A DNA stretch of 64,000 nt. Source: a virus. Position numbers and translations under genes: made by a program. The notes beneath the pieces were generated by a model. It worked only from the letters and a program-made list of their open reading frames with translations. It ran no database searches and had not been told where the DNA came from. The stretch lies in IMG/VR virus record IMGVR_UViG_3300027852_000031, positions 62,001 to 126,000 of that record; one strand, written 5' to 3'. This document shows, one piece after another, positions 25,425 to 57,244 of the stretch (positions are counted from its first letter, which is position 1; the number at the start of each line of letters is the position of its first letter).

Positions 25425-26004
25425 TTTGATTCTCCGTTAACGCTATTCTAGCCAACATTTCTGCGTCGAAATCTGGAACTATTGTTGTATGTACATCTAT
25501 ACCAAACTCTGCTGCGATCAATCGTCTGTGATCATCGTGTCTAGAAATGACACGTATTCTGGCATCGCAGAATGCTGGTCTAATTTGGTCTGTATCCTTG
25601 TTTGGTACATCAATAAATTCTGGATCAAATACATAATGATAAACTATATCTGCATTTGTCGATAGGGCATGAATCGCTGTTTCCATACTTGTTGCTATGA
25701 GCGGATATCTATCCCATCTTAAAAGTTCTGCTATACCAAACAATGGACATAATACCGGCACACATGGCGGCATTATGTGTTGTCTAAAAATACAGATATC
25801 TAGTCCTGCATATTTTTTACAAAGATTGTTTATTGAATTGAGTCCAAAATAAGTCATATGTGAGGTTGATAGATGGTTAAACATGAATCCTACTATGGAA
25901 CGTTCACTCTCTAATTTTAAACCAATTTTTGCCATTTCTAATGACGCAGCTTCTTTTCGCCGAATTGCTTCGGCGTGTTTAGGATTTTTTTGTTTTTTAC
26001 CCAT
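25417..26004 (-). CDS. Hypothetical protein in the glycosyltransferase cluster
   Basis: 195 residues. A basic helical N-terminus (MGKKQKNPKHAEAIRRKEAA) precedes an alpha/beta-like region with a Cys/Pro loop (IMPPCVPVLCPLFG) and a segment ADIVYHYVFDPEFID. No motif allows a function. It overlaps both neighbours by eight bases, so it belongs to the same transcript as the GT2 gene upstream. An accessory role in the sugar locus is possible from position alone. Confidence 0.5.
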   Translation of the reverse strand: MGKKQKNPKHAEAIRRKEAASLEMAKIGLKLESERSIVGFMFNHLSTSHMTYFGLNSINNLCKKYAGLDICIFRQHIMPPCVPVLCPLFGIAELLRWDRYPLIATSMETAIHALSTNADIVYHYVFDPEFIDVPNKDTDQIRPAFCDARIRVISRHDDHRRLIAAEFGIDVHTTIVPDFDAEMLARIALTENQNV

Positions 26005-26767
26005 TTGGACTATTCCTACGACTTAGGGCAAGATTACGAGCCATCTGTTCATGTTGATCTATTTGTTGCTCATTGGTTGAGTTGCTTGTTAGTTCTATGT
26101 TATTATGTAATGGCGCCGGTATGTGGTATATTAGACCAATCTCCGAAATTCTCAACAAAAAATCATAATCCTCCCTATCCGACATCTGTTCATTGAACCC
26201 ACTCTTGAGTTGTGGGAATACGTTAGATCTAACGAGCAAATTCCGATCATATTGATGTCCTGCTAGGAGTTTTTGTATATCAAATGATGGTCTAAATATT
26301 CGCTCAACTCTTCCATCCAAATGGTATAGATCACAATCACTAACGACACAAGCAACTTGCGGAAACTGGTTAAACACACATACTGCTTGTGATATTTTAT
26401 CTGGCGCATACCAGCTGTTTGGATCTATAAAACCAAAAATCGTTACACCTTGCCACTTCATCTGTATCGCCGTATTAAGTGTTCTTGCCGTGGTTCCTTT
26501 CCGTTGCCGAAATATCTTGATAGAAACACCATTCAAAATACCATCAAATTCTGGTGGCATCCCAGTATTACCGTCAATTGTAACTGGCTGTGCCCCTAAT
26601 AGTTCACATAATATATCATATGTTCCATCAGTACTGTCATTATCACCTATTATTACTTGATCTGGCGGTCTAAATCCTGCAGTGATAGAATTAACAGCCT
26701 TCTTAACGTTGGTTTTGTTGTTTTCAGTGACCATAACGATTGTTATGTTTTCTTTGTCTTTAATCAT
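25997..26767 (-). CDS. Family 2-like glycosyltransferase (GT-A)
   Basis: 256 residues starting MIKDKENITIVMVTENN. GT-A features: the start strand ITIVMVTENNKTNVKKA, the nucleotide-binding VIIGDNDSTDGTYD, a TTARTLNTAI segment (like the usual ..ArN.gi), FGFIDPNSW in place of the DxD strand (only one Asp and an Asn, so metal binding may be altered), and SDREDYDFLLR (the ED base motif). ATG 26767 is preferred because it forms an ATGA overlap with the preceding stop. Confidence 0.75.
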   Translation of the reverse strand: MIKDKENITIVMVTENNKTNVKKAVNSITAGFRPPDQVIIGDNDSTDGTYDILCELLGAQPVTIDGNTGMPPEFDGILNGVSIKIFRQRKGTTARTLNTAIQMKWQGVTIFGFIDPNSWYAPDKISQAVCVFNQFPQVACVVSDCDLYHLDGRVERIFRPSFDIQKLLAGHQYDRNLLVRSNVFPQLKSGFNEQMSDREDYDFLLRISEIGLIYHIPAPLHNNIELTSNSTNEQQIDQHEQMARNLALSRRNSPNG

Positions 26768-27528
26768 GATATAAATACATCTTCGCAAAACCAAGTTAAT
26801 TTGATGCACGTATCTTGTTCTTCTTTGCTTAATTGCTGCTCGAACGTCAGATTTTCCTTGTTCATTATTAATGCTCGATATGGCTTAGTTATAAATACAC
26901 CAAAATTTAAGTCATTTATATGTATCCATGTGTCACCAATAACTGATGACATAGACCAGTGGATTACTCTTGTATAAGGGTGTTCTATGTGCTTCGACAA
27001 AATATCCAAACCATATATCTGCTGGCCCGCAGACAAAACTGTAAAAAATTTGGCATGCACCTGTTTAGAAATCCTCTGTATTGTACGAGATCTCTGGTCA
27101 TATGTTTCATGTTTTGCGCTACTATCTACAACAACATCAATAGAGTTGGCGTGCTCCTTCATACAATCTAGCGATATATTTTTGCGATCACCAAAACCTG
27201 TTGTATCAACAATAATAACTTTTTGGACATATTTGGCGAACCACTCAGAATCAAGTGTCCTGTTAAGATCAGATGCTGTGTGAATATGTTCGTCGAACAA
27301 TATCAATAAATCAAATTTAAATACATTCTCACTAATAACTTTATCTTTTAATACTTCTATGTCACAGGTTTTGTGAGATTGAGCCCACTGATTGCTTCTG
27401 CACAATCGACAATAACCCGGAGCGATAACATTACCATTTTTCTCTACACACATTTGAAATAACCGACAACCACGCCCAGTATCATCACTTTTGAGGAAAC
27501 AGCATCCGTTGCAACCAGTTGTTAGCAT
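26764..27528 (-). CDS. Cys-rich N-terminus glycosyltransferase-like protein
   Basis: 254 residues. The first ~45 carry eight cysteines in a zinc- or cluster-like pattern (CNGCCF, GCRLFQMC, APGYCRLCRSNQW). The remainder has alternating hydrophobic strands (FDLLILFDEHI, KVIIVDTTG, SIDVVVDSS) typical of a GT-A-like sheet, and IHINDLNFGVFITKPY near the end. Activity cannot be named. It overlaps the methyltransferase upstream by seven bases and shares ATGA with the GT2 gene downstream, so all three are likely co-translated. Confidence 0.5.
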   Translation of the reverse strand: MLTTGCNGCCFLKSDDTGRGCRLFQMCVEKNGNVIAPGYCRLCRSNQWAQSHKTCDIEVLKDKVISENVFKFDLLILFDEHIHTASDLNRTLDSEWFAKYVQKVIIVDTTGFGDRKNISLDCMKEHANSIDVVVDSSAKHETYDQRSRTIQRISKQVHAKFFTVLSAGQQIYGLDILSKHIEHPYTRVIHWSMSSVIGDTWIHINDLNFGVFITKPYRALIMNKENLTFEQQLSKEEQDTCIKLTWFCEDVFIS

Positions 27529-27995
27529 TTTTGTACCTCTATATACATCGCAATACCTTCATATCTCTTGGTGGTAATTACCAATCCTAGTTCAGACAAT
27601 ATTCTCAATATTGTATCTGAATCTATGATAACATTGCGTCTATCATGCTCTTGATCGGCCCCCAAAATAATCTTAGTAAATTCACCCAAATCTATTTGAC
27701 CCTGAACGAACGATTGCGCGACCACATAACAATCTGGTATTAAAATGGTGATTTTACCACCGATTTTGAGTTTAGCAAACCAATTGGCTATCGCTTTTTT
27801 CACAGAATCTATATTAGTCAAGTATTCCAGGCAATCTATAGCCAGAATCTCGTCCACTGTATCATTCTCTGTTAACCAGTCTAGCGACTCCATATCGCCC
27901 TGTCTAAAAAATTCACCAGATACATTTAATGATTTACAATCTATATTGATATATCCCACCCTAATGTCATCACCACATCCTAGATTTAATCGCAT
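27522..27995 (-). CDS. Class I SAM-dependent methyltransferase
   Basis: 157 residues. Motif I is LNLGCGDDIRVGYINID with the acidic end of strand 2 (NIDCKSL), followed by VDEILAIDCLEYL (motif II/III) and a GGKITILIPD strand: the small FkbM/UbiE-like fold common in sugar loci. The substrate is not visible. A GGAG ribosome site sits directly after the TAG of the preceding gene. Methylation of a sugar or lipid-linked glycan is inferred from neighbours. Confidence 0.75.
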   Translation of the reverse strand: MRLNLGCGDDIRVGYINIDCKSLNVSGEFFRQGDMESLDWLTENDTVDEILAIDCLEYLTNIDSVKKAIANWFAKLKIGGKITILIPDCYVVAQSFVQGQIDLGEFTKIILGADQEHDRRNVIIDSDTILRILSELGLVITTKRYEGIAMYIEVQKC

Positions 27996-28005
27996 CTATT
28001 GTCTC

Positions 28006-29025
28006 CTATTGCCATCTTCCTGTAGGGCATTGCGCCACCTTCTGAAACGCCCGATTCCAATCTGCGACGAATCTTTCTTGACCAAACTTTTCAATAACTG
28101 TTTTTCTGCCAGCGTCACCAACTGCTTTCGCCATATCGGTGTCGTTTACTAAATCTATTAAATGTTTCTTCATTAACACCGGATCGTTTGTTATGAATCC
28201 GTTCACACCATTCTCAATAAACTCTGGCATCATTGTTGTTGCGGTTGTTACTATTGGACAACCCACCGACATAGCTTCTAATAGAGAGAACGGGCACGAC
28301 GACCAAATAGTTGTGTTCAAATACACAGAAGCCTTTCGGTAAAGTTCTCTGAGGTGATCTGAGTTGTCCGCCATTTTTGACAGCCCAGGTGTATCTCCCC
28401 AAGGATTTACCTCTAGACCACTTGTTACCTCTTTCCATAACGAGAATCCACAAATACGATCCCGTGCTATGTAATTCCATACAGCTGTCATTACCCTACT
28501 ATCGCCACCCACCCATCCATTCCAATAGTCTGTGTCCATACCGTGGTGGATTATTTGTACATCCTTATCTTCGGTATTATGAAACCATGCTTCAACCGAA
28601 AAATCAGAAACAAATATGTTGTGGTCGCATGGCAGGTGACCAACATTTCGTATTGTCTTTTCGTCCCAATCTGGCCACGGTAGTGTATGCTCCATTTGTA
28701 GCAAAGGACAATTTAACTGTTTGGCTAACTGCACCATTATTGGATAGTGTTCAACACGATTTTGTGTTAATACTAAATCAAACGATATATCCATACTCAG
28801 TTGACTTGGGATATCTTTTCCCTGTAAGATGAAAAAGTTTGGAGGCAACGGTCGTTCTTTTTGGTCCCATGGATGAAATTTGGGATGTTGCAAAACATAA
28901 AAGTTATGACCAGTTTTAGCCAGTGTTGCGCTGTACGCTTCATGATTATTACTGTATAGTATATTCAATGGCTTTGATATATCCCTGTTGATACTTCTTA
29001 ATATCGCAGATAATGATGATGCCAT
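28006..29025 (-). CDS. GT4-type glycosyltransferase (GT-B)
   Basis: 339 residues. The C-terminal half has SSCPFSLLEAMSVGCPIVTT, the GT4 E-x7-E-like donor site, then PEFIENGVNGFITND and a final VIEKFGQERFVADW helix. The N-terminal half has the LYSNNHEAYSATLAK and VLTQNRVEHYP strands. A GGAG site lies ten bases before the ATG. It ends with TAG, which overlaps the ribosome site of the next gene. The sugar and acceptor are unknown. Confidence 0.8.
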   Translation of the reverse strand: MASSLSAILRSINRDISKPLNILYSNNHEAYSATLAKTGHNFYVLQHPKFHPWDQKERPLPPNFFILQGKDIPSQLSMDISFDLVLTQNRVEHYPIMVQLAKQLNCPLLQMEHTLPWPDWDEKTIRNVGHLPCDHNIFVSDFSVEAWFHNTEDKDVQIIHHGMDTDYWNGWVGGDSRVMTAVWNYIARDRICGFSLWKEVTSGLEVNPWGDTPGLSKMADNSDHLRELYRKASVYLNTTIWSSCPFSLLEAMSVGCPIVTTATTMMPEFIENGVNGFITNDPVLMKKHLIDLVNDTDMAKAVGDAGRKTVIEKFGQERFVADWNRAFQKVAQCPTGRWQ

Positions 29026-29029
29026 ATTT

Positions 29030-30208
29030 CTACAACTCCAAAAGATTTTTCGCTATTAAACCAACTTTTTCATAACTATATTTAAACGCCCTATGTCTAG
29101 CCATTTGTCCTACCGCCGCAAGCGATCCGTTTTGCCATTTTTCATATGCCTGTTTCATACAGGAGATAAAATGACATATATCTGGTTCAAACCAATACTC
29201 ATCACCAGTATAAAGATCTGGGTAACTTTCTGTGTGGCCAAAACATGGTGTCAATTGCCCGTTGACAAGCCATCCTCCATCTGCTACATTGTCATTTGAA
29301 AACCGATTTGTTGTTGGTCTCCATGATGCAATTGCAGAACTGCTCAGCAGTTCTGGGGATGATCCCCAATTGCTTAGTATCGCTGGATTTCCAAACCCAA
29401 GAGCGTCATGGGCAGGAATTCCCCACGCCTCTCCATGACTAGCAGATACAAAAACATCACCAGTTTTATGTAGTTGATTGATTTTTTCGTCTGGCAAAAA
29501 ATCAGTTATACATGCTACTGGTGGATAATACGAATGTCTCGCATAGATATGTATGGATTTTTTGATATCAGCGATTGTCTCTTTTATTATGCCCATGGTT
29601 TCTTCTGGTGATTTGCCTGGAATATTGGCCTTTATTACCAGAACGACATCGTCTCGCAATGTAAATGCGCTGTAGAACGCTCGTATTGTGGCAATTATGT
29701 TTTTCCTACGACTCATCTCTCCTATCGTATAAAAGACACATTTATTAGACAACTTTGGAATTTGTAGTGGCTTAGTATCGGCATTAAATTTAGAAGTATC
29801 ACATGCGCATGGCATTTTTCTTATTGGAACCTTTACTCCACTATTTTTTGCCGCCTGTGTATTTTGTATTGATGGTACCCATATTTCGTCCATTATGTTA
29901 CAGCAATGGGGCCAATTAGATCTACGAAAATGTGTAGTTTCCCAATCAAATATTCCTATATTTTTCACACCATATTTGTACTCGAAAAAGTTAGGAAGAA
30001 TATGTTGTATAACCACTTCTACATTATCAACAGATTTATCCTCTAAATGTAATACTTTCTTTGCCAAATCACGATTGGTGGTTTGAGATAAACTGACAGA
30101 TCTTGATACTACATCTAAACCGGCAGATTCTAACGCCAACATATTGTTCACGGCTTGGTGCGCATATCCTGTACCATCTTTACATACGCTTATATATGCG
30201 ATTTTCAT
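29030..30208 (-). CDS. GT4-type glycosyltransferase (GT-B)
   Basis: 392 residues starting MKIAYISVCKDGTGYAHQAV, the Gly-rich acceptor-side loop. FYTIGEMSRRKNIIATIRAF is the usual linker-strand motif of GT4 enzymes, and SASHGEAWGIPAHDALGFGN is the E-x7-D/E donor-site region. Its start shares the A of the preceding stop (TAATG), coupling it to the intein-containing glycosyltransferase upstream. Donor and acceptor unknown. Confidence 0.82.
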   Translation of the reverse strand: MKIAYISVCKDGTGYAHQAVNNMLALESAGLDVVSRSVSLSQTTNRDLAKKVLHLEDKSVDNVEVVIQHILPNFFEYKYGVKNIGIFDWETTHFRRSNWPHCCNIMDEIWVPSIQNTQAAKNSGVKVPIRKMPCACDTSKFNADTKPLQIPKLSNKCVFYTIGEMSRRKNIIATIRAFYSAFTLRDDVVLVIKANIPGKSPEETMGIIKETIADIKKSIHIYARHSYYPPVACITDFLPDEKINQLHKTGDVFVSASHGEAWGIPAHDALGFGNPAILSNWGSSPELLSSSAIASWRPTTNRFSNDNVADGGWLVNGQLTPCFGHTESYPDLYTGDEYWFEPDICHFISCMKQAYEKWQNGSLAAVGQMARHRAFKYSYEKVGLIAKNLLEL

Positions 30209-32964
30209 TATATCACCGATATCTTTAATTCATCAGGGTCTAATTTTGACAAAGAGGCGAAACGCTTTTGTTCAAATGCATTACCGTGTTTTACCATTTC
30301 TATAAAATGGTCAATCATCGCTCGACGATCAAATGGGACACGTTTATCACCAACCGTTCTTGAACCACTATTGAGTGATTGTAGCCATTCTCCAGCGAAA
30401 TGAGTATTAATCATATCTGGGCGTTTCCAGATTTTGCCAATTACCCAATTAACAAATTCATTGTTGTTCATATCATTAGTTGGTGGGATCAAATTCGGTT
30501 GGTTGATTTTTGGTGTAGACCGAAGCCACGTATCATTTACATCATTTATGGATGTTTCTCGAATAACTTGTGCCCAAATAGCGGCTGTGCGCTCCCATCC
30601 CCTACGACGCATCTGTTGGGTCTGTCCGTATGTGTCGACTAGTTCTTCAATGTACTCTCTCGTTCGATGAGATTTATTATTTCTGACTTCTTCTGTTTGC
30701 TTTAAAAATCGGTCAAGCTTATTGGCAAAATCTTTGTTGCTTGGCAGTGCTCGTTTTTGTTCTGTCTCGATAATCGATTCCCAGAAAAATCTTTCTACCT
30801 CTATAGGAATAGATGTGGGATTCTTCAAATGGTCTTCCATGGCTGAATAATTTACTGCCATTGTGGGTACACCACACGCCTGAGCTTCAACGCATGGCAT
30901 CCCAAAACCCTCGCAGTTATGGGACATACCACATATGGTATTGTAATTATGATCATCCTCAACATCTATGGTTATCACATCACCATTAAAATCGCTCTGG
31001 TTGGAGGATGCCACTTTTGTTAATACAAATCCATCTCTATATAATGTCTCGTGTGATTTTCGCTGCCCATCAGTACGGATTTCAAAACGATACATTGGAA
31101 GTTTGCCATCTCGATACTGTATAGAGCACGAGTAATACCAGCCAAGACGCTCAAGAATTGGACCTACCATCTTTGCTATATGGACAGAAGTAGTGCAATA
31201 CACGTTAAGCCATTCTTTTTTCTGATGTCCATCTCCAAACATTAGTCCTTCGACTAATTTTTGTTGAAGATCAATTGGCCACATATGACATCTGTCTGGT
31301 AATTGTTTTGTTTTGTCTTGATGATAACAAATATTCCTCAATTGATCTCGCAGTTTGGTATCACATATGTTTGTAGCAACTGCCTTTCTATCCTTGACTT
31401 TTGACTGACGGGCTTTTTTGTTAATTTTTTTGGCGATTTTATTTGATACTTCCAACACGTGAGATGCTTCTGTTTCGTGCGATGTTATCGTACATTGCCC
31501 ACATGTGGTATTTGCATGGCCGTCCGCAGCAAATAGTCCAAGATAGTATGCCATGTTTTCATCCATAAACGGAAGATCATAATCTGGCAAAATTTCTTCT
31601 TCGGGAATTCTACTAGCCAACAAATCCCCAGGTTGCAGTTCATCTGTTCTTTTATAGACAAATTTTAATTCAGGACATTGTGTCCCTCTATTTTTATGAT
31701 AACGTTCACGATTAACAATGCTTTCAGTACCTTTTGATAAACCAGTTTTGTCAACAACCAGCCATGGATGATTATCCGTTGCTGTTACAGACCAAGGTCT
31801 ACCTTTAACTGAAATATCAAAACATTGATTAGGTTTACTGTGCATTGTTTTGTAGACACGATGAAGCTTCCCGTCCCTGCCGACAACTTTGTCGCCGACA
31901 ACTATATTGCCTATATTATTCCACCCATCAGAAGTCATAACGGGAGTACCAGGGTGTAAACAGATAGAGTATTGCACATACAGATCAAACGTTTTCATAA
32001 TATCGGCCAATATATGTCTTGGGCAAAAATGATTAGCATTTGGTGGATGTGCTGCTAATTTGCCACATTTACGACATATCGCCATATCTCCCTCAAAAAA
32101 GGCTGGGTATACTGCTTGGCAATTGCCGCAAATATAAGTCATAATGACCTTGTTGCAAATTTTAAAATCTCTAATTGCTTTGCCTATGTCATACCCAACG
32201 TCTGGGTAGCTGGTATGTAAATACAAGAATGTACGATTTGCTAGCTGTGTATGCCCCTTAGTTTTGGAATGATATAGCCATTGACTGAAAGCCTCAATCA
32301 AATCATAGTATAACTTGCGTTTTTGGTTACGCATCACGGTGCCGACTATGATAGAATTTGGGTCTATACCAAGCTTTGATTTATGAGCCCTTTTATCTGG
32401 TGGTGGTTTAAAAACATCAAGGTCTGCACCAGGAGATGCTATGGTAACCAAATTAGTATCTCTGCGTCCTGTTCTTTTTAGTAAGTCCATGCCATACTGA
32501 GAATATGTTAATATGGAATCGCACTGTTGATATGAGTCTAACCATAGTTCTCTTTGTGGCTCTCCGTCGATTGTCGGCATCCAGATAAATGAGAAATATT
32601 TTCTAGTAGGAGAACGTAATACGAATTCGTCCATCCACCAGTCTCGTATGCCGCAGACAATGTCTGGCTGGAAATCTATACACACATCTTCAAATCTCCA
32701 TTCACCAAACTGGTTAGTTGGGCCAGCCATATATTGTTGCATAGCTCTTTGATCACTACGAGGAGGAGCTACAGCATAAAATTTCCATGGTACTTGTTGA
32801 CACCTTGGGTCATCATCGTGGGCGTAGCTTCCAATCTCCGCTATCTCAAATTCACAAGTATCATGCAGCCGTTTGATTACTTCATGCCAATATGTGCTAA
32901 AACCAGTAGCTAAAAAACTGGCTTCACCTATGAATAACACACGTTTTTTTTGTTTAGATTCCAT
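30208..32964 (-). CDS. GT4-like glycosyltransferase interrupted by an intein
   Basis: 918 residues before splicing, about 569 after. N-extein residues 1-334 carry VLFIGEASFLATGFSTYW (acceptor loop), a GTVMRNQKRKLYYDLIEAF linker, and an inserted zinc ribbon (CGNC...CRKC) close to the junction. The C-extein begins CEGFGMPCVEAQACGVP, the donor-site E-x7-E motif. The intein therefore cuts the active-site loop between YVQYSI and CEGFG. The last ~90 residues are an extra helical part. ATG 32964 is preferred: GGAG lies five bases upstream, while GTG 32970 would sit on the ribosome site. It overlaps the sigma-factor gene by 11 bases. Confidence 0.85.
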   Translation of the reverse strand: MESKQKKRVLFIGEASFLATGFSTYWHEVIKRLHDTCEFEIAEIGSYAHDDDPRCQQVPWKFYAVAPPRSDQRAMQQYMAGPTNQFGEWRFEDVCIDFQPDIVCGIRDWWMDEFVLRSPTRKYFSFIWMPTIDGEPQRELWLDSYQQCDSILTYSQYGMDLLKRTGRRDTNLVTIASPGADLDVFKPPPDKRAHKSKLGIDPNSIIVGTVMRNQKRKLYYDLIEAFSQWLYHSKTKGHTQLANRTFLYLHTSYPDVGYDIGKAIRDFKICNKVIMTYICGNCQAVYPAFFEGDMAICRKCGKLAAHPPNANHFCPRHILADIMKTFDLYVQYSICLHPGTPVMTSDGWNNIGNIVVGDKVVGRDGKLHRVYKTMHSKPNQCFDISVKGRPWSVTATDNHPWLVVDKTGLSKGTESIVNRERYHKNRGTQCPELKFVYKRTDELQPGDLLASRIPEEEILPDYDLPFMDENMAYYLGLFAADGHANTTCGQCTITSHETEASHVLEVSNKIAKKINKKARQSKVKDRKAVATNICDTKLRDQLRNICYHQDKTKQLPDRCHMWPIDLQQKLVEGLMFGDGHQKKEWLNVYCTTSVHIAKMVGPILERLGWYYSCSIQYRDGKLPMYRFEIRTDGQRKSHETLYRDGFVLTKVASSNQSDFNGDVITIDVEDDHNYNTICGMSHNCEGFGMPCVEAQACGVPTMAVNYSAMEDHLKNPTSIPIEVERFFWESIIETEQKRALPSNKDFANKLDRFLKQTEEVRNNKSHRTREYIEELVDTYGQTQQMRRRGWERTAAIWAQVIRETSINDVNDTWLRSTPKINQPNLIPPTNDMNNNEFVNWVIGKIWKRPDMINTHFAGEWLQSLNSGSRTVGDKRVPFDRRAMIDHFIEMVKHGNAFEQKRFASLSKLDPDELKISVI
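30916..31962 (-). mobile_element. Intein with LAGLIDADG homing endonuclease, in the glycosyltransferase
   Basis: 349 residues. Block A starts CLHPGTPVMTSDGW; block B has SVTATDNHPW with the TxxH; block F is VITIDVEDDHNYNT and block G ends CGMSHN before the +1 Cys of the C-extein. Two dodecapeptide motifs, YYLGLFAADGH and LVEGLMFGDGH, mark a LAGLIDADG endonuclease, with both acidic residues kept, so splicing and homing may both be active. It is less similar to the DnaB and RecA inteins than those are to each other. Confidence 0.92.
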
Positions 32965-34101: not shown

Positions 34102-36048
34102 TTATATTAATTTCTGTATATCGCGCACAATGAAACTGCCGTTTTGTTTTTTCCCGTATACCAAACATATGATATTGGGCATGCACATACCCTTAAGTTG
34201 CATAAAAACATCTGGGAATACAACCGCATGATCTATAGAATATGTAGAATCAGATACTGTAAGAAAACACATTGGTTGTCCAGGATTTTTACCTCTTTTT
34301 GTTTTTGTGTGCTTGACACTATCGATTATAGCGCAAACCACAGCATCTTCGTTATTTGGTAACTGTGCCAATTCTAAACACGTGTGGGTAGACAAACTAT
34401 CATCCGCATCATCGGCTGGGGAGCAAGACAATGAAATACCAAGGAAATGTTTTTCTGCAGTAGCGCTGGCTGTATTGGTATCCATAATGGGAGTAGATAA
34501 TATTTCTGCTTTGGACATCATGATTTGACGTCTTGCATCGCTTGAACATGGTGGTTTAATTTTTATGTCTTTATATCCATTTTTTTGTAGCAATTCTATT
34601 ATCTGTGACTTTGTTTTACTCTTCAAATTTTTTAACCATTCTATTTTTTCGGATGGTGTAGTGTGGAGGAACACTCCACCATCATCGAGCATAATCCCAT
34701 CACAAATTCCTACTGAATCAAAAAACCCATTAGATAATTCTAATAATTCATTCTTTAACATTTGAGCTAAGGATTTGTTTTTTGGGTCTGGGGACTTTGA
34801 CATGGACGATATAATTTCTCTGGCTGTTTGACCAGAAGTCTTTAGCTTATCAAAGAAATATTCTCTTTCTTTTGGTGTTAATCCTTTGATTTCTTTTTTG
34901 TGTCCATTTTCATCGTGAGTTGTTGTCCCTAGTACTACTTCTAATTCTCTTATCATCTCACTACGTTGCATATCGTAACAGTCGCATGCGCCAGATTTTA
35001 TTAATGCTATACCAACGTTTCTATGAAAGTCAGGTACCGATGCCAGAAAATCACCCCAAGTTGCTAAGCTGGATTTGTTGACCCTTTCGCTATCTGCAAT
35101 AATATCGACAACATGTGTTCTTGCTGCGACATTTGTACAACCTCCGTGATTCATTATGGATTCGTCCAATGGGTCCATTCCTTGCGTTGTGGCTGCTGTT
35201 ATAATTTTTTCAATGGCAGAGGTGCCAACGCCCCTAATGTGGGACAGACCGAATGCTACGCCCTTGTGTGGCACGTCTGTCATTTGGAAGTGGGTATTCC
35301 CACGCCTAATATCTGGCGGGAATATATCGACACCGAAAAGTCTAGAATCTTGGACAAGATTATAGATTTCTTCTTTTGGATCACCCTTATATTGCGAATA
35401 AGTTAAGTAGCTTGTGAAAAATTCATGTGGGAAATGACATTTAAGCCAACTAGTTTGATAGGAAATCATTCCGTAAGATATTGCATGGGATTTATTGAAT
35501 GAATATCGTTGACATTTTTCGATCCACCCAAATATCTCTTCAGCAATTTGTTTGGATATGCCACGATGATTATTGGCGCCATCAACAAATTTGCTTTTTA
35601 AAGTAGCCATTAACTCTGGCTTTTTTTTGCCGATGGCTTTTCGGAGTTCATCTGCCATCTCAGGGCTAAAACCAGCCAAATCTATCGCTATCCTAAGTGC
35701 TTGTTCCTGATAAACCATACACCCATACGTTGAATCAAGAATGTCTTTAAGGGATGGGTGTAAATATGATATCTTTTTTTTACCAAATTTGATATCTACA
35801 TAATCTTGTGAGAGTCCAGATTCTAATGGACCGGGACGGAGTAATGATATTAAGGCTGCCAATTCCTCCAAACTCTTTGGTCTCACCTTTTGAGACCAGT
35901 CTTGGCCTAGCTTTTTCTCTAGTTGGAACACGCCTATCGTATGACCACCAGCCAATAATCGCCATACAGCAGGGCAATCTAACGGTATATGGTTGATGTC
36001 AAATTTCCCGACTTCAACCTGGCATGCACAATTTGTAAATTTAATCAT
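34102..36048 (-). CDS. dnaE-C: DNA polymerase III alpha subunit, C-terminal half of a split DnaE
   Basis: 648 residues. Begins just before the fingers domain: IPLDCPAVWRLLAGGHTIGVFQLE, then LRPGPLESGLSQDYVDIKFG, YLHPSLKDILDSTYG, VYQEQALRIA, LRKAIGKKKPE and the FNKSHAISYG-like loop. A helix-hairpin-helix (IRGVGTSAIEKII) and a C-terminal OB-like domain follow. It has no PHP domain and no catalytic Asp triad; those are in the gene at 45175. ATG 36048 is the only start after an in-frame TAA, and no clear ribosome site precedes it. The two proteins must associate to make an active polymerase, which is inference. Confidence 0.9.
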   Translation of the reverse strand: MIKFTNCACQVEVGKFDINHIPLDCPAVWRLLAGGHTIGVFQLEKKLGQDWSQKVRPKSLEELAALISLLRPGPLESGLSQDYVDIKFGKKKISYLHPSLKDILDSTYGCMVYQEQALRIAIDLAGFSPEMADELRKAIGKKKPELMATLKSKFVDGANNHRGISKQIAEEIFGWIEKCQRYSFNKSHAISYGMISYQTSWLKCHFPHEFFTSYLTYSQYKGDPKEEIYNLVQDSRLFGVDIFPPDIRRGNTHFQMTDVPHKGVAFGLSHIRGVGTSAIEKIITAATTQGMDPLDESIMNHGGCTNVAARTHVVDIIADSERVNKSSLATWGDFLASVPDFHRNVGIALIKSGACDCYDMQRSEMIRELEVVLGTTTHDENGHKKEIKGLTPKEREYFFDKLKTSGQTAREIISSMSKSPDPKNKSLAQMLKNELLELSNGFFDSVGICDGIMLDDGGVFLHTTPSEKIEWLKNLKSKTKSQIIELLQKNGYKDIKIKPPCSSDARRQIMMSKAEILSTPIMDTNTASATAEKHFLGISLSCSPADDADDSLSTHTCLELAQLPNNEDAVVCAIIDSVKHTKTKRGKNPGQPMCFLTVSDSTYSIDHAVVFPDVFMQLKGMCMPNIICLVYGKKQNGSFIVRDIQKLI

Positions 36049-44443: not shown

Positions 44444-45178
44444 CTATTGTATGGCGTTACCATCGTATGTGTACAACGTTCTTCCGTTGATGTCTATCAC
44501 TCGGTTAATTTGCAACTTATCCATCATTAGTCTTAAATATTGTTGCATACGACAATTTCTGTGATTATAATAATTTGTATCCTTAATCGGTCTATGCCCG
44601 ACAGAAACAGTTGGCGTATGTCCTATGTTTAATTTGCCTATAGATCTTGCAAAGAAAATCATATGGTCAACTGTTTTAAAATCATGATCCCAACCACCTA
44701 TCTCTTTGACTTTATCCGTCCTGCTCATCCAAAATTGTAGAACAATATTCCATAAAATGAAATTATCTAAAACTCCAGATGGTGTTTTGCTGAATACCAA
44801 TGCCCCATCTACAATGTGTAGGCTGGCGTGGTATTCTGGATGTCCATCCACATTACCACCTATCATATGAAGATTGGTTTCGTCTAATATCGTTAACCAC
44901 TTTTCAAGTCGTGTCCTATGGTCAAAAACAAAATCGTCATCTAACGTCACAACAAATTCGGTGTCTACTTTGCTTAGTGCCAAATTTCTTCCAGCAGAAA
45001 CGCCACTGTCATATGGCATGTGTAGGTGATCCACACCAGTTAGTTTGCATGGATTACTGCTATCATCAGCCACTATTATTCTTATGTCTGGATACATCAG
45101 TTTAATGCTATATATTAATCTATTTAAGCAGTTTGGTCTCTCGAATGTTTTTACTATAAATGTCACACGCTTTTTCAT
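44444..45178 (-). CDS. GT12-like glycosyltransferase (beta-1,4-GalNAc transferase-like)
   Basis: 244 residues. TFIVKTFERPNCLNRLI, RIIVADDSS, SAGRNLALSKVDTEFVVTLDDDFVF, TRLEKWLTIL, MIGGNVDG and WMSRTDKVKEIGGWD follow, in order, the GT-A core of GM2/GD2-synthase-type beta-1,4-N-acetylgalactosaminyltransferases (AGRNLAVSQV..KYVLWVDDDF, TRLE, ARTDKVREVGF from memory). LDDDF is the DxD metal site. It shares ATGA with the N-terminal polymerase gene upstream, so its translation is coupled to it. The natural sugar cannot be read from the sequence. Confidence 0.78.
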   Translation of the reverse strand: MKKRVTFIVKTFERPNCLNRLIYSIKLMYPDIRIIVADDSSNPCKLTGVDHLHMPYDSGVSAGRNLALSKVDTEFVVTLDDDFVFDHRTRLEKWLTILDETNLHMIGGNVDGHPEYHASLHIVDGALVFSKTPSGVLDNFILWNIVLQFWMSRTDKVKEIGGWDHDFKTVDHMIFFARSIGKLNIGHTPTVSVGHRPIKDTNYYNHRNCRMQQYLRLMMDKLQINRVIDINGRTLYTYDGNAIQ

Positions 45179-47523
45179 ATTTCACTCTCAACAAATTCTT
45201 CGTCTAAAACTGTATCATCTATGCCACCATTGATAAGATCCTGTGCTTTCCATAGTTTATCTAAAGCTACTACGCCCAAAAAGTCAAATTTTACAGCGCC
45301 CATTGCTTCGGCATCATACATCTCTAAACCGACGACTCTATCCTTATTCTTTGGGTCGTATACTAAAGGAACTAATTCGGCTATGGGCCTATCTGCGATT
45401 ACTACACCAGCAGCATGTTTCGATTGTGATTTTTTTGTTCCTTCTATCCTCATGGCCTGATCGAATAATGGTTTATACCAGTTATAAGCATCTCGTATTT
45501 GATCTATGTTGTGAACTGACCATTGTAGAATGCCATAATCATCTCCCTGTTCCTTTCTTGCCTGACGCAATTCATCAGCAATAGTAGCTTCATCTGGTAT
45601 AAAATGTGTAATTTCATTACACAGGTCGTGTGGAGTGATATGGATTTCATTTGGATCTTTACCTTCTTTTACTGCCTTAACTTTCATAAGCTGTTTAACA
45701 GTATCTGGGTGGGCTCTAAAGACTTCCTTCAAAGCTGCTTTACCCTGTAGTCTTCCGAAGGTTATCATTTGTGCAACATATTCCTCTCCCCATCGTTCTT
45801 TCAGGTATGCTATTACTTCATTCCTAAAAACAACCCCAATATCTGTGTCAATGTCTGGCAAACTTATATGACCACTATGTGTAGTAACTTTCTTGTCCGT
45901 ATCAAATTCGTTTCGTCCAGCTAATGTTAATCCCAAACCATATGCCAAATGCGAATTTGATTTATTATCTGCTGGTTTTAACAAAAGCATGTCGTGTAAA
46001 TACATCCACATTCTAGGGTTGTTGTGGTCTATCCACTCCACCTCTTCCCTCATATGGTTGGTAAATTCAATTCCATATTTTCGCATACGTTTCGCCAAGT
46101 GTCTCGCGATTTTTGCCCTTTCGTCGTCACGGTTTCGAGTGTGTAGTAATTCAAAATTATCAGACATCCATGACATAAAATCCTGTTGGCCAATATCAAA
46201 GTGTGGTGGAATATTTCTACTCATATTATAGAATCGTTCAAAGTATAATCCATATTCAATAGGATCTATACCAGTGATTCCTACAAGATAATTTACCAAT
46301 GATCCAGCGCCAGATCCACGACCCTTACCTCTTGGTCCATTTTTGGCATCGACAAACTTGCAAGCATCCCATACTATCAAAAAGTAATCAGCAAGACCAG
46401 CTTCGTTGATAACGATTAGTTCTTTTTTGAGTCTTGCCCAATAAACAACTTTTTGCTCATCCGTGCAATCTGATAGTTTGGTTTTAGCACCTTGTATACA
46501 TAAGTGTCTAAGATAATCATTGGAGTCTAGTCCTAGTGTGCTAGACTCTTCGTTTGTGAATACTGGAAGATACGGAGAATGACCAAGTGATGTGTAATTT
46601 ATTTTTGCCGCTATATCAAGTGTGGTTTGTAATTCCTGTTCAGTAAAATGCTCTCTCATTTCATCATATGACGGGATATAATAGTTGTCTGATACCATGA
46701 AGTCCATAACATCGCCCGTCTGCTTAAGTTTCAGATCTTGTTCTTCTCTGGTGGTGTGAAGTTGCGCATAGAGCAATAGTCTTTGGTCTTCCGCTTCTGT
46801 TTGTCTACAATAATGTGCATCAATCGTCGCTACTGTTGACACACCAGTTTCGTCTCCTAGCTGCCTCAAGCAATCAACTACTACCTTTTGAATATCCATA
46901 CCCTCATTTTGTAGTTCGAGGTAGTAGTTATCTTTACCGAATATTTCGATATGCTTATTGATTATATCAACACCAACTTGCTTCCAGTCGGGTTTAAGAA
47001 GTTGTCTAACGCCCTGCACATTAGTGCCATGTCCACTAGCTATTGTGGCTTCCCGGAAGTTAACAAATAGGCTAGAAGGCAATTCCCCGGCAATACAAGC
47101 TGTTAAAAATATCAGGTTATTTCTGCTGGCGAATTGTGTTATTCCACCAAGATGTATCCGTGGTTTACGATAAAAATAATCTGGTCTATTAGATTCACTT
47201 ATTAATTCCATTAGATCCTTAATGCCATCATCATTTTTAGCCAAAACTATTAGATGATTGCGTGTATTATTCGTATTATCTTTTATGGCGGCGTCTTTTT
47301 CGACAACGTACATTTCACATCCAATAATGGGTTTTATTTGTTTTTTCATTGCTGCGTCATAAAAGGTTTTCAAACACGATATATTCCCGTGGTCGGTGAT
47401 GGCCACACCTGGTAATTTAAGTTCGACACATCTATCGACTATATCTTTTGGGGAACACAGGCCATCCAAAAGACTATAAAAGCTATGACAATGAAGTGGA
47501 ACATATGTATTTTTTGTTTTCAT
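45175..47523 (-). CDS. dnaE-N: DNA polymerase III alpha subunit, N-terminal half of a split DnaE
   Basis: 782 residues. PHP domain: LHCHSFYSLLDG (H11, H13) and AITDHGN (D44, H45). Palm: GPRGKGRGSGAGSLVNYLVG (400s), LPDIDTDI with catalytic D557 and D559, ITFGRLQGKAALKEV, and GAVKFDFLG with the third catalytic Asp D747. The protein stops ~32 residues after KFDFLG, exactly where the fingers linker of DnaE lies; the remainder is at 34102. An unusual ~120-residue insert separates FERFYN (428-433) from LPDID. ATG 47523 is chosen because GGAGA lies six bases upstream. Confidence 0.92.
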   Translation of the reverse strand: MKTKNTYVPLHCHSFYSLLDGLCSPKDIVDRCVELKLPGVAITDHGNISCLKTFYDAAMKKQIKPIIGCEMYVVEKDAAIKDNTNNTRNHLIVLAKNDDGIKDLMELISESNRPDYFYRKPRIHLGGITQFASRNNLIFLTACIAGELPSSLFVNFREATIASGHGTNVQGVRQLLKPDWKQVGVDIINKHIEIFGKDNYYLELQNEGMDIQKVVVDCLRQLGDETGVSTVATIDAHYCRQTEAEDQRLLLYAQLHTTREEQDLKLKQTGDVMDFMVSDNYYIPSYDEMREHFTEQELQTTLDIAAKINYTSLGHSPYLPVFTNEESSTLGLDSNDYLRHLCIQGAKTKLSDCTDEQKVVYWARLKKELIVINEAGLADYFLIVWDACKFVDAKNGPRGKGRGSGAGSLVNYLVGITGIDPIEYGLYFERFYNMSRNIPPHFDIGQQDFMSWMSDNFELLHTRNRDDERAKIARHLAKRMRKYGIEFTNHMREEVEWIDHNNPRMWMYLHDMLLLKPADNKSNSHLAYGLGLTLAGRNEFDTDKKVTTHSGHISLPDIDTDIGVVFRNEVIAYLKERWGEEYVAQMITFGRLQGKAALKEVFRAHPDTVKQLMKVKAVKEGKDPNEIHITPHDLCNEITHFIPDEATIADELRQARKEQGDDYGILQWSVHNIDQIRDAYNWYKPLFDQAMRIEGTKKSQSKHAAGVVIADRPIAELVPLVYDPKNKDRVVGLEMYDAEAMGAVKFDFLGVVALDKLWKAQDLINGGIDDTVLDEEFVESEI

Positions 47524-47618
47524 ATATGTCTCCATGCTTTGTGTAATTTTATGGCAGAAACTAAACTTTGTGTAATACCAAATTGTTGTGCTATATCGAT
47601 TGTATTTAATCTCTTCAC
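47520..47618 (-). CDS. Small HTH peptide or relic of an HNH endonuclease
   Basis: A 32-codon frame reading VKRLNTIDIAQQFGITQSL then VSAIKLHKAWRHI and TGA. This is the helix-turn-helix end typical of phage HNH homing endonucleases (iA..fgvs.s.Vs.I..gk.Wkhi). The only start is a GTG that overlaps the stop of the nuclease gene upstream (GTGA), with no ribosome site, and the HNH part is missing. More likely a leftover than a working gene. Confidence 0.4.
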   Translation of the reverse strand: MKRLNTIDIAQQFGITQSLVSAIKLHKAWRHI

Positions 47619-50394: not shown

Positions 50395-53097
50395 CTAACC
50401 CATCATACTTGATTGTGTCACCATTGAAAATGTTTGCCCTTCGGCCAATTTGCCTATTTCTAGTTCATTTACAATGTTTATATATTCGCCACTCTCCATG
50501 CCAGGGCCATATCTAGTATCTGTTACCACCAATTTTTTGGTACCATTAGATGGTGGGTCTTCATTCAATTCGGTTTGTGTTTTCTTCTTTAGAATCGTAA
50601 AATTAGAACATAACCAAACTATTCTATCTGATCCAGAAACTACTTCTGCACCTTCTCTCTCAACACCGTCACGATTAAGTTGAACAGTAGCTAAAACTGG
50701 CAGTTTGTATTTAACTGCAAAATTATGTAGTGCTGTTATCAAAAAGCCAAGCAATTGATATTCCTGAACGTTTCCCTTCAAACCACCATCGTCCATTAGT
50801 TTTAAGTAATCATATATTATCAAACATGGTTTGGCACATCCACTGTCCGTAAAACCGACAGTTTTCGATAACCATCTTCTGGCAATGGACATTATTGCTT
50901 GAGGAGTTAAGCCAGCCACAGAAAAATGATCGATATCTAATTTCTTAATATTCGCTTGTGACTCCCATAGCGCATCAGATTCATGTTGATTTTTTACGAA
51001 CTGTCCAGTCTCTACGTGATTTAATTCAACACCCGATACAAGAGATGCTAGTCGGTGCAACTGCGTATCGCTCGTTAGTTCTGTGTCTAAATACAAAACT
51101 GGTATACCATTTTCTGCCATATTTTTTGCTACATTGATACAGAAAAAGCTGTTATGACTTACCATTCCATTCGTAATGAAACTGTGTCCATCTGGTATAT
51201 AAAAATCCGATGTCCACTCCTTGTCTGATAATAGTGAATGTATCGGATCAAACAATAGATGCGGATCTATAATTGTTTTAATCTCCTGATATTCTGGCAA
51301 ATAGTCATATATTGACAATTGATTTAATAGTTTTTGAACTACATCTCTTCTAGCTTTCCTGGTCCCTCTAATCCAGCGGTTAACGTTATCTCGCATATTG
51401 ACTCTTCGTCCTGGCAAAAAAAAGCCTCTGTGTTTTTGGATTGCCCTTTTGAGTGCTAACAGCGGCACCTTTAGGTTTGGTATCACATCATTTTTGGTGG
51501 AAGACGGTTTTTCGCAAAATGAATTAAGTAATTTTTGCTTCCTTTCGATACCAAATCCTATCAGATCGCGGAAAATAATTGCTGATTCTACGTTTTGTAT
51601 TGCAATCTCCCAATACACATTGGGTTTTGTGTGTCCGGGTGGGACTATATGTCTTATTCTGGTTTTTGACAATATTCCTAAATTCAACAACATTGCCTTT
51701 AGTTGAATAGCTAGTTTTTGTGAATTTGTAGTAGCTGTTACTCCTCTTTTTTCTACACAACCATCAGCATCAAAATATCCACGTAAAGCCCGACAAACAA
51801 TTTCTTCTTTACATGTTCTAATAGTCGTAGGAAAAATTTTGCGATTATTTTCATCATAAAATCCCAATGATAATATTTTTTTTGCAATTTTCACCCTATT
51901 GCATCTTATATGGAATTTGTTTTCTGTTCCTATGTCACCGCCACAACGACCAATAAATGTTCTAAATTGCTCTCGGCAGTGTCCATTAATTGAAGCTAGT
52001 TCGACGATTGTATCGTTTATACAACCATCGCCAACCAACAATCCAATAACATATGCGTCATTTATGTCGATAGTAGCACTACCCCAGTATCTATCCCCTC
52101 TTCTACACACTAAATAATCTTTTGACTTCAAATCTTCTGTGTTCTTCCATTTGATTTTTCCATCGGTATCTAGAATTTGCACAGGGTGGTTTGGGGTTGC
52201 CGACAAGGTATTCCCATATTTGGTTTGTATCTTAATTACATCAACAAAACCATTATTCCACCAATACTCGGGTTGTTTTTCATCGCCATTTGAATTCAGT
52301 AATCTCAAATCCGAACTACATAATTGTGGTAATGCTTGTTGGAAATTTGTGGATTTAGCGCAATACATTTCGTATGGCATTAAAATACCAAGGTTAGTCA
52401 ATACTACCGTACTGAAGGAACCGTGACATTTTCCAATTTTCGGCCTAGCGCCAATAACGTTCACAGTAGCAGGACGTAAGCCACCACCTATTGCTATATC
52501 CCACTTAGTAAAACCAGTGGGAAGACCTACAATGTCTTGCGGTGTTGTGGCTAACGATTGCATGACATGCTGGAATGAATCTCCTAGTGAAACCACACCT
52601 GCGGTTTGGGATACGGTGTTCCCCGTAAATTCGAATATGGGTTCTTCGATGGCACTAATAATTTCATCTACACCTTCTGCTCCAGTTATCGATGTTAAGG
52701 TTTTTTGTATTTTAGTTACAGCAAGATATCCCTGTCTAGCTAATGATAATTTGTATATTGCTATAACCATAGCCTGAACGTTATCCCGAGACAGACCAGT
52801 TTCATCTATTATTGATGTCAAATACTCAGTGTGTTTTCCTCCAGCGGCAAAAGAGGCATATCCCAAAATCCTGGCAGTAGCCTGTATGCTAGGTAAATCA
52901 AATGTTTTTGTATCTTCTTTGTGAACCATGTGTGAAAAAATTGCAAACAATTCCTGATTATATTTCCAGTATAAATCTTTAACATTGATGATATCTTCTA
53001 CTTCGAAGAAACAATCAGAACCATACGTAGCTATGCCCGCCATGACGGCTCGTTCCATGCCAGAGTCTTGTAGTATAGCATTTTGTTTATTGCGCAT
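50395..53097 (-). CDS. dnaB: DnaB-type replicative helicase interrupted by an intein
   Basis: 900 residues before splicing, about 474 after, the usual DnaB size. The N-terminal helical domain is residues 1-160; GLPTGFTKWDIAIGGG leads to the Walker A GARPKIGK, which the intein splits after Lys223. The C-extein resumes SFFCINVAKNMAENG, then LYLDTELTSD, Walker B LIIYDYLKLM, VQLNRDGVE (the Q/N motif) and a final arginine-finger region TDTRYGPG. ATGC follows the upstream TAA as TAATG. An unspliced protein would lack a P-loop, so splicing gates activity. Confidence 0.93.
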   Translation of the reverse strand: MRNKQNAILQDSGMERAVMAGIATYGSDCFFEVEDIINVKDLYWKYNQELFAIFSHMVHKEDTKTFDLPSIQATARILGYASFAAGGKHTEYLTSIIDETGLSRDNVQAMVIAIYKLSLARQGYLAVTKIQKTLTSITGAEGVDEIISAIEEPIFEFTGNTVSQTAGVVSLGDSFQHVMQSLATTPQDIVGLPTGFTKWDIAIGGGLRPATVNVIGARPKIGKCHGSFSTVVLTNLGILMPYEMYCAKSTNFQQALPQLCSSDLRLLNSNGDEKQPEYWWNNGFVDVIKIQTKYGNTLSATPNHPVQILDTDGKIKWKNTEDLKSKDYLVCRRGDRYWGSATIDINDAYVIGLLVGDGCINDTIVELASINGHCREQFRTFIGRCGGDIGTENKFHIRCNRVKIAKKILSLGFYDENNRKIFPTTIRTCKEEIVCRALRGYFDADGCVEKRGVTATTNSQKLAIQLKAMLLNLGILSKTRIRHIVPPGHTKPNVYWEIAIQNVESAIIFRDLIGFGIERKQKLLNSFCEKPSSTKNDVIPNLKVPLLALKRAIQKHRGFFLPGRRVNMRDNVNRWIRGTRKARRDVVQKLLNQLSIYDYLPEYQEIKTIIDPHLLFDPIHSLLSDKEWTSDFYIPDGHSFITNGMVSHNSFFCINVAKNMAENGIPVLYLDTELTSDTQLHRLASLVSGVELNHVETGQFVKNQHESDALWESQANIKKLDIDHFSVAGLTPQAIMSIARRWLSKTVGFTDSGCAKPCLIIYDYLKLMDDGGLKGNVQEYQLLGFLITALHNFAVKYKLPVLATVQLNRDGVEREGAEVVSGSDRIVWLCSNFTILKKKTQTELNEDPPSNGTKKLVVTDTRYGPGMESGEYINIVNELEIGKLAEGQTFSMVTQSSMMG
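51151..52428 (-). mobile_element. Intein with LAGLIDADG endonuclease, in DnaB Walker A
   Basis: 426 residues. Starts CHGSFSTVVLTNLG (block A); SATPNHPV is block B; VIGLLVGDGCI and ALRGYFDADGCV are the two LAGLIDADG motifs; it ends HSFITNGMVSHN with +1 Ser. From about residue 345 to the end it aligns with the RecA intein (shared RHIVPPGHT, RRDVV.K.LNQ, IDPHL.FD). An additional helical unit after the endonuclease (NRWIRGTRKARRDVV) is shared by both. Confidence 0.93.
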
Positions 53098-54964: not shown

Positions 54965-57244
54965 TTAGTTCTCCTGATCCTGCGGTAATACTATAGTTCG
55001 TATCTCAGATTCTAGTTGCATCAATTTATCTATATTATTTCTTAAGAAATTAGACAATTTAGCCAACCCTTGGAATTTTGGTGTCTCATCGTTCTCTGCG
55101 AACATTGGTACGGAATACCATGCACCAGCTTTCTGGACTAAACCCAAATTTTCGGCTGTATTGACTATGTCGCGAACATTGTCTATTCCTATGCCATATT
55201 TCAAAGGGATAGTGCACGGTAGCAATGGCCTGCCCATTGCCGATGACTGAACCATTATGTGCATATCGTGTCCATCTGGCGCGTTGGTCTCTGGGTTTTT
55301 ATCCCACTGTTGCGTCCATGTAACTTTGAGCCAGACAGAACAAGCATACTGAACAGCGACACCACCCTTCTCTATATATTTTGGCCCACGAGGTTCCCTG
55401 TTGCTAATCATCTGAGAAATAAATATTAGAATTACATTGTTAGTATCAACGACCTGTTGTGCTCGACGGAAAAAGGCTGACAAAAGTTTTGCTGGTCCTG
55501 CCATATCCTTATTTGACCCGATTAATTCTTCTTGCTCTGTGATAGTAGATAATGCCGCTATGCTATCTATAACCACTACAGCTTTTTTTTGTGTTTTGGC
55601 TATCCGTTCAATAATGTTGAGATAATCTTCTGCAGATAGCGGCTTATCTATTTGGTGTGGTACTACCTGTAGTTTATCGGCATCTAATCCACCAATGGTA
55701 CCAAGCAATTCTGGGGTACACCGACGTTCTATGTTAATATAAAACGTTGGTCTATTTTGTTTTTGGGCATTTCGTAATAGCTCTAGACATAATGTTGTAT
55801 TGTGATTTACTATCCCGTTTGCTAAAAACGATTTGCTGATAGGAACACTTAAGTCTGCTGTATGCACAATACCCGTATCCAAGGCTGTAACTGTATCAAA
55901 AAACAAATGTGGATCAATTAACGATTCAATTGTCTGATATTCTTTCGTGTGTCGATAATCCAAAAATTGATTAAGCATCTTCCGAACCACATCCCTGCGG
56001 GCTTGACGTTTTCCTGATTTCCATCTATTGATTGTCGTCCTCAAGTTGTTCATTGTTCTTGAAAGAAAATATCCACGATCTCTGATAATTACTGTTTGTA
56101 GAGCAGTTATTGGTTCGTTCAGATACGGAACTGTATCGCATTTGGTAGATGATTTTCTACGACAAAGCGATTCTAGTGCTTTTCTTTTTCTTGGAATGCG
56201 GAAATTTATATAATCTTTAAATCTTTTTATTGATTCAGTATTATGTATATTTATTTCCCAATATTCACGACTTTCTGTGTGTCCCGGAGGAACAATATGT
56301 CTAACCCTGGTATTTGACAATATTCCTAAATTCATCAAAATGGTTTTTATTTGTATGGCGAGTATCCTAGAATTAGTGGTCGCACTTATTCCACTTTTCC
56401 CAATTGTTCCATCGGCATCAAAATAACCAGACAACATATTACATATGTTATTAATATTACATGTACGGATAAAAGCTGGTACTTGTTTGTATTTATTGAT
56501 ATAAAACTTCTCTCTTGTCAGTATTTTGCCGTATTTTACAGAATTGAAATGATGGTCCTTGTCTGCGTATGTTAAAACTTTACCATTTCTTTTAACTACA
56601 AAATCAACAAAAGCTTCATAACAAATAGAATCTTTTGTCGACAATTGTATTCTTTGATTGGCTATATGGCCGTCACCTATTAAAAGGCCGTAGACATAGG
56701 CGTCGTTGTTGTCAATTGACCTATTTCCCCATATATTATCCCCTCTACGACACACTAAAGTATCACCTATCTCGACATCTTTACCATTTTTCCATCTCTG
56801 GATACCGTCATGATCTAGTACCATCAACGGATGGTTGTGCGTTACACTAATTTCTGAACCAAATTTTGTATCAATTTTAATAACATTATCTATTCCATTA
56901 TCATACCAAGATGATACTCGCTGCAATTTGCCGGTATTAGACACAACTCTAATTTTTGATAATGTTCTTAATTCTTTGAGATTCAATAGTCCATGATTTG
57001 TTACCACAAAAGTATTCTTAGAATCAACGCATTTCCCAGATTTTGGTTTGCCTGTTATCAAACATATTGTTCCGTCTGGTATTCCACCACTCAGTGCTAT
57101 GTCCAAAGATAATGGGGTGTTCAGTATGTTACGTGACCGTGGTGGTAACGCCCTTGAGGCTGGTGCTATGATTCCTTCTCCGTGCACTCGCTCCAGAAAT
57201 GCATCTAATGATTCTGCATTTACATCTGGTCGTTTTCTAGCCAT
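54965..57244 (-). CDS. recA: RecA-type recombinase interrupted by an intein
   Basis: 759 residues before splicing, 348 after, a normal RecA length. MARKRPDVNAESLDAFLERV begins the protein; TPLSLDIALSGGIPDGTICL leads to Walker A GKPKSGK, split after Lys71. The C-extein resumes TTLCLELLRNAQ; FYINIERRCTPELL carries the catalytic-Glu strand, VVVIDSIAALS is Walker B, and ILIFISQMISN the Gln sensor. ATG 57244 is used: it overlaps the upstream stop as ATGGCTAG with GAGAAA upstream; longer forms would add residues unlike RecA. Confidence 0.92.
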   Translation of the reverse strand: MARKRPDVNAESLDAFLERVHGEGIIAPASRALPPRSRNILNTPLSLDIALSGGIPDGTICLITGKPKSGKCVDSKNTFVVTNHGLLNLKELRTLSKIRVVSNTGKLQRVSSWYDNGIDNVIKIDTKFGSEISVTHNHPLMVLDHDGIQRWKNGKDVEIGDTLVCRRGDNIWGNRSIDNNDAYVYGLLIGDGHIANQRIQLSTKDSICYEAFVDFVVKRNGKVLTYADKDHHFNSVKYGKILTREKFYINKYKQVPAFIRTCNINNICNMLSGYFDADGTIGKSGISATTNSRILAIQIKTILMNLGILSNTRVRHIVPPGHTESREYWEINIHNTESIKRFKDYINFRIPRKRKALESLCRRKSSTKCDTVPYLNEPITALQTVIIRDRGYFLSRTMNNLRTTINRWKSGKRQARRDVVRKMLNQFLDYRHTKEYQTIESLIDPHLFFDTVTALDTGIVHTADLSVPISKSFLANGIVNHNTTLCLELLRNAQKQNRPTFYINIERRCTPELLGTIGGLDADKLQVVPHQIDKPLSAEDYLNIIERIAKTQKKAVVVIDSIAALSTITEQEELIGSNKDMAGPAKLLSAFFRRAQQVVDTNNVILIFISQMISNREPRGPKYIEKGGVAVQYACSVWLKVTWTQQWDKNPETNAPDGHDMHIMVQSSAMGRPLLPCTIPLKYGIGIDNVRDIVNTAENLGLVQKAGAWYSVPMFAENDETPKFQGLAKLSNFLRNNIDKLMQLESEIRTIVLPQDQEN
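55799..57031 (-). mobile_element. Intein with LAGLIDADG endonuclease, in RecA Walker A
   Basis: 411 residues. Block A CVDSKNTFVVTNHG; block B SVTHNHPL; LAGLIDADG motifs VYGLLIGDGHI and MLSGYFDADGTI; end KSFLANGIVNHN with +1 Thr. Clearly a sister of the DnaB intein: CRRGD, YWEI, RHIVPPGHT, RRDVV.K.LNQ and IDPHL.FD are shared in the same order. Confidence 0.93.

Follow-up and report, generated by a model that had tools for sequence, protein, structure and literature searches.

Gene Organization of the Locus

The analyzed stretch of 64,000 nucleotides (hereafter, the window) corresponds to bases 62001–126000 of a 166,379-base virus record. On its minus strand, a glycosyltransferase (GT) precursor is encoded by an uninterrupted ORF, which begins with an ATG at 32964 and ends with a stop codon at 30208; a GTG located 6 bases upstream is a possible alternative start. 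An in-frame insert of 349 aa is found between YVQYSI and CEGFGMPCVEA and separates the two exteins of the enzyme (Table 1). Its neighbors (28006–29025, 29030–30208, 27522–27995 and 25997–26809) resemble glycosyltransferases and methyltransferases, which suggests that the gene is part of a glycan-modification cluster.

Table 1. Features of the GT precursor gene, intein insertion sites in related GT genes and further intein loci in the window
Feature	Position	Strand	Description
GT precursor ORF, intein included	30208..32964	minus	918 aa
N-extein	31963..32964	minus	residues 1–334; from alignment with intein-free alleles
CxxC...CxxC zinc-ribbon-like insert in the GT	32065..32130	minus	Cys279, 282, 297, 300
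Intein, CLHPGTPV...GMSHN	30916..31962	minus	349 aa, residues 335–683
Splicing block A	31924..31962	minus	begins with the Cys1 nucleophile; Cys1 invariant in 6/6 site-a inteins
Splicing block B, TDNH (T-x-x-H)	31768..31779	minus	intein T62, N64 and H65 invariant in 6/6
LAGLIDADG motif 1, LGLFAADG	31519..31542	minus	catalytic Asp present; degenerate in the L039 allele
LAGLIDADG motif 2, LVEGLMFGDG	31228..31257	minus	intein G243, D244 and G245 invariant in 6/6
Block G and +1, GMSHN/C	30913..30930	minus	penultimate His, terminal Asn, extein Cys684
C-extein	30211..30915	minus	residues 684–918; from alignment with intein-free alleles
E-x7-E donor motif	30886..30912	minus	E685...E693
Insertion site a	after residue 334		window, L002/L029, L003/L024, L025, L026, L039
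Insertion site b	after residue 103		L002/L029, L008/L041, L020, L021
Insertion site c	after residue 111		L013/L040
Insertion site d	after residue 128		L010/L018
P-loop intein locus, DnaB	51151–52428	minus
P-loop intein locus, RecA	55799–57031	minus

Splicing and Endonuclease Domains of the Insert

The insert carries the full class 1 residue set, namely Cys1, the block-B TDNH, the terminal His-Asn pair and the +1 Cys, the last of which, directly after the terminal Asn, had been recognized in the preliminary description as well. Both LAGLIDADG helices end in an acidic residue. The terminal His-Asn and the Asp of the second LAGLIDADG motif are invariant in all six inteins known at this position, including that of L025, which shares just 26–30% identity with the other five.

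In searches of Pfam, PHROGs and NCBIfam, several intein and LAGLIDADG models matched weakly, at the expected positions. The Pfam matches to the insert were Hint_2, Hom_end_hint, Intein_splicing and LAGLIDADG_3, so the Hint blocks anticipated earlier were found, each weak and under the curated cut-offs. A profile built from the six site-a inteins matched the solved inteins PI-PkoII (1.3e-8), TliVMA (8.6e-8), PI-SceI (5e-6) and gp41-1 (4.8e-5). The AlphaFold2 model of the intein, with a mean pLDDT of 78 and low values in the last 13 residues (block G among them), matched PI-SceI over its full length with both domains covered (E 7e-16, probability 1.00); VMA inteins were matched too, through the Hint fold. 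Thus, the Hint/LAGLIDADG assignment is weak by single-sequence HMM and becomes strong only through the profile and the fold. The LAGLIDADG intein proposed in the preliminary description between YVQYSI and CEGFGMPCVEA is borne out by its residues, by the profile and by the PI-SceI fold match.

The endonuclease part of the model also matches I-DmoI, which is intron-encoded, and LAGLIDADG endonucleases are found in introns too; the insert might on these grounds be a group I intron or another RNA-level element with a homing endonuclease gene. However, in 6/6 site-a alleles the reading frame continues across both junctions with no stop. The insert also has the full set of Hint splicing residues placed precisely at its termini, together with the Hint-plus-endonuclease fold match to PI-SceI. 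An intron requires none of these features. Based on the frame and the splicing residues, we dropped the intron reading, the probability of which we regard as negligible.

Host Glycosyltransferase

Pfam assigned the extein to GT1 (4.8e-7). The predicted structure of an intein-free relative (L006, 569 aa, pLDDT 87) has a GT-B fold, with the best structural matches being the GT of the chlorella virus PBCV-NY2A (3oy2), MshA, GlgM and PimB′, and also BshA; against solved GT4 enzymes, the TM-score normalized by target was up to 0.77. The host enzyme is predicted from this model to be a GT-B/GT4-like glycosyltransferase. This agrees with the earlier proposal of a GT4-type enzyme with the insert beside the E-x7-E motif, the first Glu of which is one residue past the splice junction. 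Across 13 intein-free homologues, this Glu was invariant, and the second position was mostly E and sometimes D. Upstream of the motif, R212 and K217 were invariant in the same homologues; as in GT4 enzymes generally, they are presumably donor contacts. The four Cys residues of the zinc-ribbon-like insert were conserved in 13/13 homologues, down to 33% identity.

Among named phages, the extein found matches of just 23–25% identity over part of its length, the nearest being Synechococcus phages S-EIV1 and S-CBS4; the intein gave weak matches in named phages, none of them to an intein at the site-a position. One 57% relative is located on a short contig binned as Phycisphaerales, which is too weak a link for a host to be assigned.

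Intein-Containing and Intein-Free Alleles

Close relatives of the GT gene were collected by IMG/VR searches. Inteins were found in the GT genes of 11 contigs, the window's counted, at four positions of the enzyme (Table 1). The gene of L002/L029 contains two inteins, at sites a and b, and the proteins of L020 and L021 are identical. The preliminary description had looked to related GT genes for empty sites, and such alleles do exist: in L004, L005, L006, L007, L017, L022, L023, L027 and others, the alignment crosses the site-a junction (VQYSI-CEG) gap-free, with no intein. Since these alleles are colinear across the junction, the boundaries of the insert are exact to the residue, and chance is excluded.

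Related phages have inserts at three further sites of the GT or none, so a mobile element has targeted this gene repeatedly, though the gene is unremarkable in other respects. When 80 relatives were sampled more widely, in a way that favors ungapped matches, inteins were confined to the close clade of the window gene. Conservation around the four sites was somewhat higher than at random positions (0.76 vs. 0.64), a value reached by 2.5% of random draws.

At the +1 position of site a, the wider family has Cys in 50, Ser in 8 and Ala in 2 of the 60 ORFs with a readable motif. As Cys is the commonest residue there, it was probably in place before the intein arrived. The Ala alleles (L007 and L010/L018) have no intein at site a, in agreement with the known requirement for Cys, Ser or Thr. 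For MCM-d, it has been described that the +1 residue can differ between invaded and uninvaded sites (PMC10643990), and site a of the GT is alike.

Mobility and Selection

L029 and L041 have near-identical inteins at site b (dS 0.14), whereas synonymous sites in the exteins are saturated (pS 0.77). Third positions are more alike than elsewhere only close to site b, and divergence resumes on both sides within about 10 codons. Judging by this difference in the coding sequences, the site-b intein homed recently between alleles, and the conversion tract was short. For site a, the L029 extein is 84% identical to that of L024 and 76% to that of the window, and its intein is 80% identical to the window intein and 64% to the L024 intein, which is discordant with the exteins; the trees are poorly resolved, yet compatible with this discordance. 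The tree separates the site-b, site-c and site-d inteins from those of site a. A search with the site-a inteins for copies in other genes returned only GT loci that had been collected before.

In the L039 allele, the first LAGLIDADG motif is partly lost and the splicing residues are kept. Intact, endonuclease-damaged and empty alleles thus occur side by side, which matches the prediction of a homing cycle. Between the window and L029 site-a inteins, dN/dS is about 0.06, with a dS of 2.37 that is near saturation, and this comparison indicates strong purifying selection on the window intein. It bears on the reading in which the Hint insert is splicing-dead or performs cleavage only, so that the gene is inactivated or its halves act as separate chains. 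Departures from the class 1 consensus are possible outside the core blocks, but the core catalytic residues are invariant in the six alleles, even in the divergent L025, the intein is strongly selected, and the C-extein is open and conserved. If the insert were dead, it would be expected to decay, or the conserved gene to disappear, and we consider this explanation very improbable.

Proposed Splicing and Homing Pathway

Based on the above results, it is very likely that the insert is a mobile, self-splicing intein of class 1 that carries a LAGLIDADG homing endonuclease, and the window intein is predicted to be an ordinary and probably active one. The following pathway is suggested. The whole 918-aa precursor would be translated first. 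Then, an N-S acyl shift would take place at Cys1, followed by transesterification onto Cys684. Cyclization of Asn683 and a subsequent S-N shift would release the intein and ligate the two exteins, giving a GT-B glycosyltransferase of 569 aa in which the E-x7-E motif is intact. When another phage infects the same cell, its intein-free copy of the gene would be cut by the endonuclease domain, so that the element spreads. Splicing is predicted from the catalytic residues and their position, and DNA cleavage by the endonuclease domain is predicted as well. From the position of the insert, it is also plausible that the precursor would have no activity before splicing and that sugar transfer depends on splicing, as had been supposed in the preliminary description.

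A refinement of this explanation, which retains splicing itself, is a conditional intein: splicing would be tuned by redox state, temperature, zinc or infection stage, and would thereby turn the GT on after translation. It is consistent with both nucleophiles being Cys, with the insert adjoining the catalytic motif and with the four-Cys motif near in sequence; in addition, stress-responsive splicing of mycobacterial DnaB inteins is reported in PMC6195587. However, the patchy presence of the intein, the many intein-free relatives and the four insertion sites fit a selfish element better than a conserved switch, and we regard conditional splicing as unlikely. Slightly less likely still is the view that phages keep the GT off until condition-dependent splicing (redox or zinc) and thereby time the modification of surface or virion sugars.

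Comparison with Known Inteins

Like PI-SceI, the archaeal VMA inteins and PI-PkoII, the window intein has a two-motif LAGLIDADG endonuclease nested in a Hint splicing domain. Unlike them, it resides in a phage GT-B glycosyltransferase, and it is about 15% identical in sequence to the solved ones. Chitin synthases (CHS) are fungal GT2 enzymes (GT-A fold, membrane), and the intein host in the window is a predicted GT-B/GT4-like phage enzyme. Inteins in the CHS of Pezizomycotina have been listed (PMC5784728); they share with the window intein a glycosyltransferase host that uses a nucleotide-sugar, but they are few and closest to the fungal GLT inteins. We therefore do not describe the present case as the first intein in any glycosyltransferase. 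The rarity of the host had been stressed in the preliminary description on the grounds that inteins nearly always sit in nucleotide-binding or nucleic-acid enzymes. This argument loses force in that this class of enzyme binds a nucleotide-sugar, which fits the nucleotide-binding habit, and in that the CHS inteins were already known (PMC5784728). Within the limited open-access literature searched, no report was found of an intein in a glycosyltransferase that is either phage-encoded or of the GT-B type, and an intein in a phage GT-B glycosyltransferase seems to be previously unreported.

Several insertion sites in one gene have been described for haloarchaeal MCM (four; PMC10643990) and for mycobacteriophage TerL (seven; PMC5050341). 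In both systems, as in the phage GT, the sites are located by catalytic motifs and a gene sometimes holds two inteins; their hosts are DNA motor proteins, whereas the GT is a sugar enzyme. With its four sites, the phage GT-B glycosyltransferase joins the intein-invaded genes, which suggests that inteins usually settle in conserved motifs of phage genes that are themselves conserved and shared, and not in nucleic-acid enzymes as such. The intact, endonuclease-damaged and empty alleles provide natural sets for tests of the homing cycle. As Cys/Cys inteins, that of the window and its relatives are also candidates for use in protein engineering.

Other Inteins and Gene Breaks in the Window Phage and Its Relatives

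In the window phage, inteins were found in the genes for RNR, DnaB, RecA and the GT and in a large-terminase-like gene; the terminase-like name is a reading of the sequence, Pfam having given the intein only. An intein-domain match was present in 12/16 related phage records. In the window phage, the P-loop inteins of DnaB (GK/S) and RecA (GK/T) share 45% identity from end to end, which suggests that an intein may have jumped between the two P-loop genes.

Ten inteins were counted by sequence in the L002 phage (IMGVR_UViG_3300014914_000003, 160 kb; L077–L081 and L002), distributed among RNR (two), RecA, DnaB, DnaE-N, a terminase-like gene, DnaE-C (two) and the GT (two). One of its RNR inteins ends in Gln, and one of its DnaE-C inteins is a 274-aa element at FNK/SHA, which we take to be the site of the cyanobacterial DnaE intein. 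In 2011, five inteins were "the most of any mycobacteriophage" (PMC3029335).

DNA polymerase III alpha is encoded in the window by two genes about 9 kb apart, both on the minus strand (34102–36048 and 45175–47535), and the break has no intein residues; this split is common to the window phage and the L002 phage. A split intein in the window's DnaE was rejected, as both halves are DnaE sequence right up to the break, with no Hint residues. An insert of about 115 aa before SLPDIDTD in the DnaE N-half was likewise rejected as an intein, with no Hint match.

A GDP-mannose 4,6-dehydratase in a related phage (L066/L082, IMGVR_UViG_3300039183_000005, ~14.2–16.2 kb) contains a 349-aa Ser1 intein at NHE/SPRRGENF, with Ser at +1. 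Together with the GT, this means that sugar-nucleotide enzymes have been invaded more than once in these phages. Further intein hosts among the related phages are an RNA ligase, which also has LAGLIDADG_2, and ThyX (L047; L058). In two relatives, small ORFs adjoin the GT genes (L007, 7702–8340; L010, 10051–10650), and inspection by eye indicates that these are perhaps free-standing homing endonucleases.
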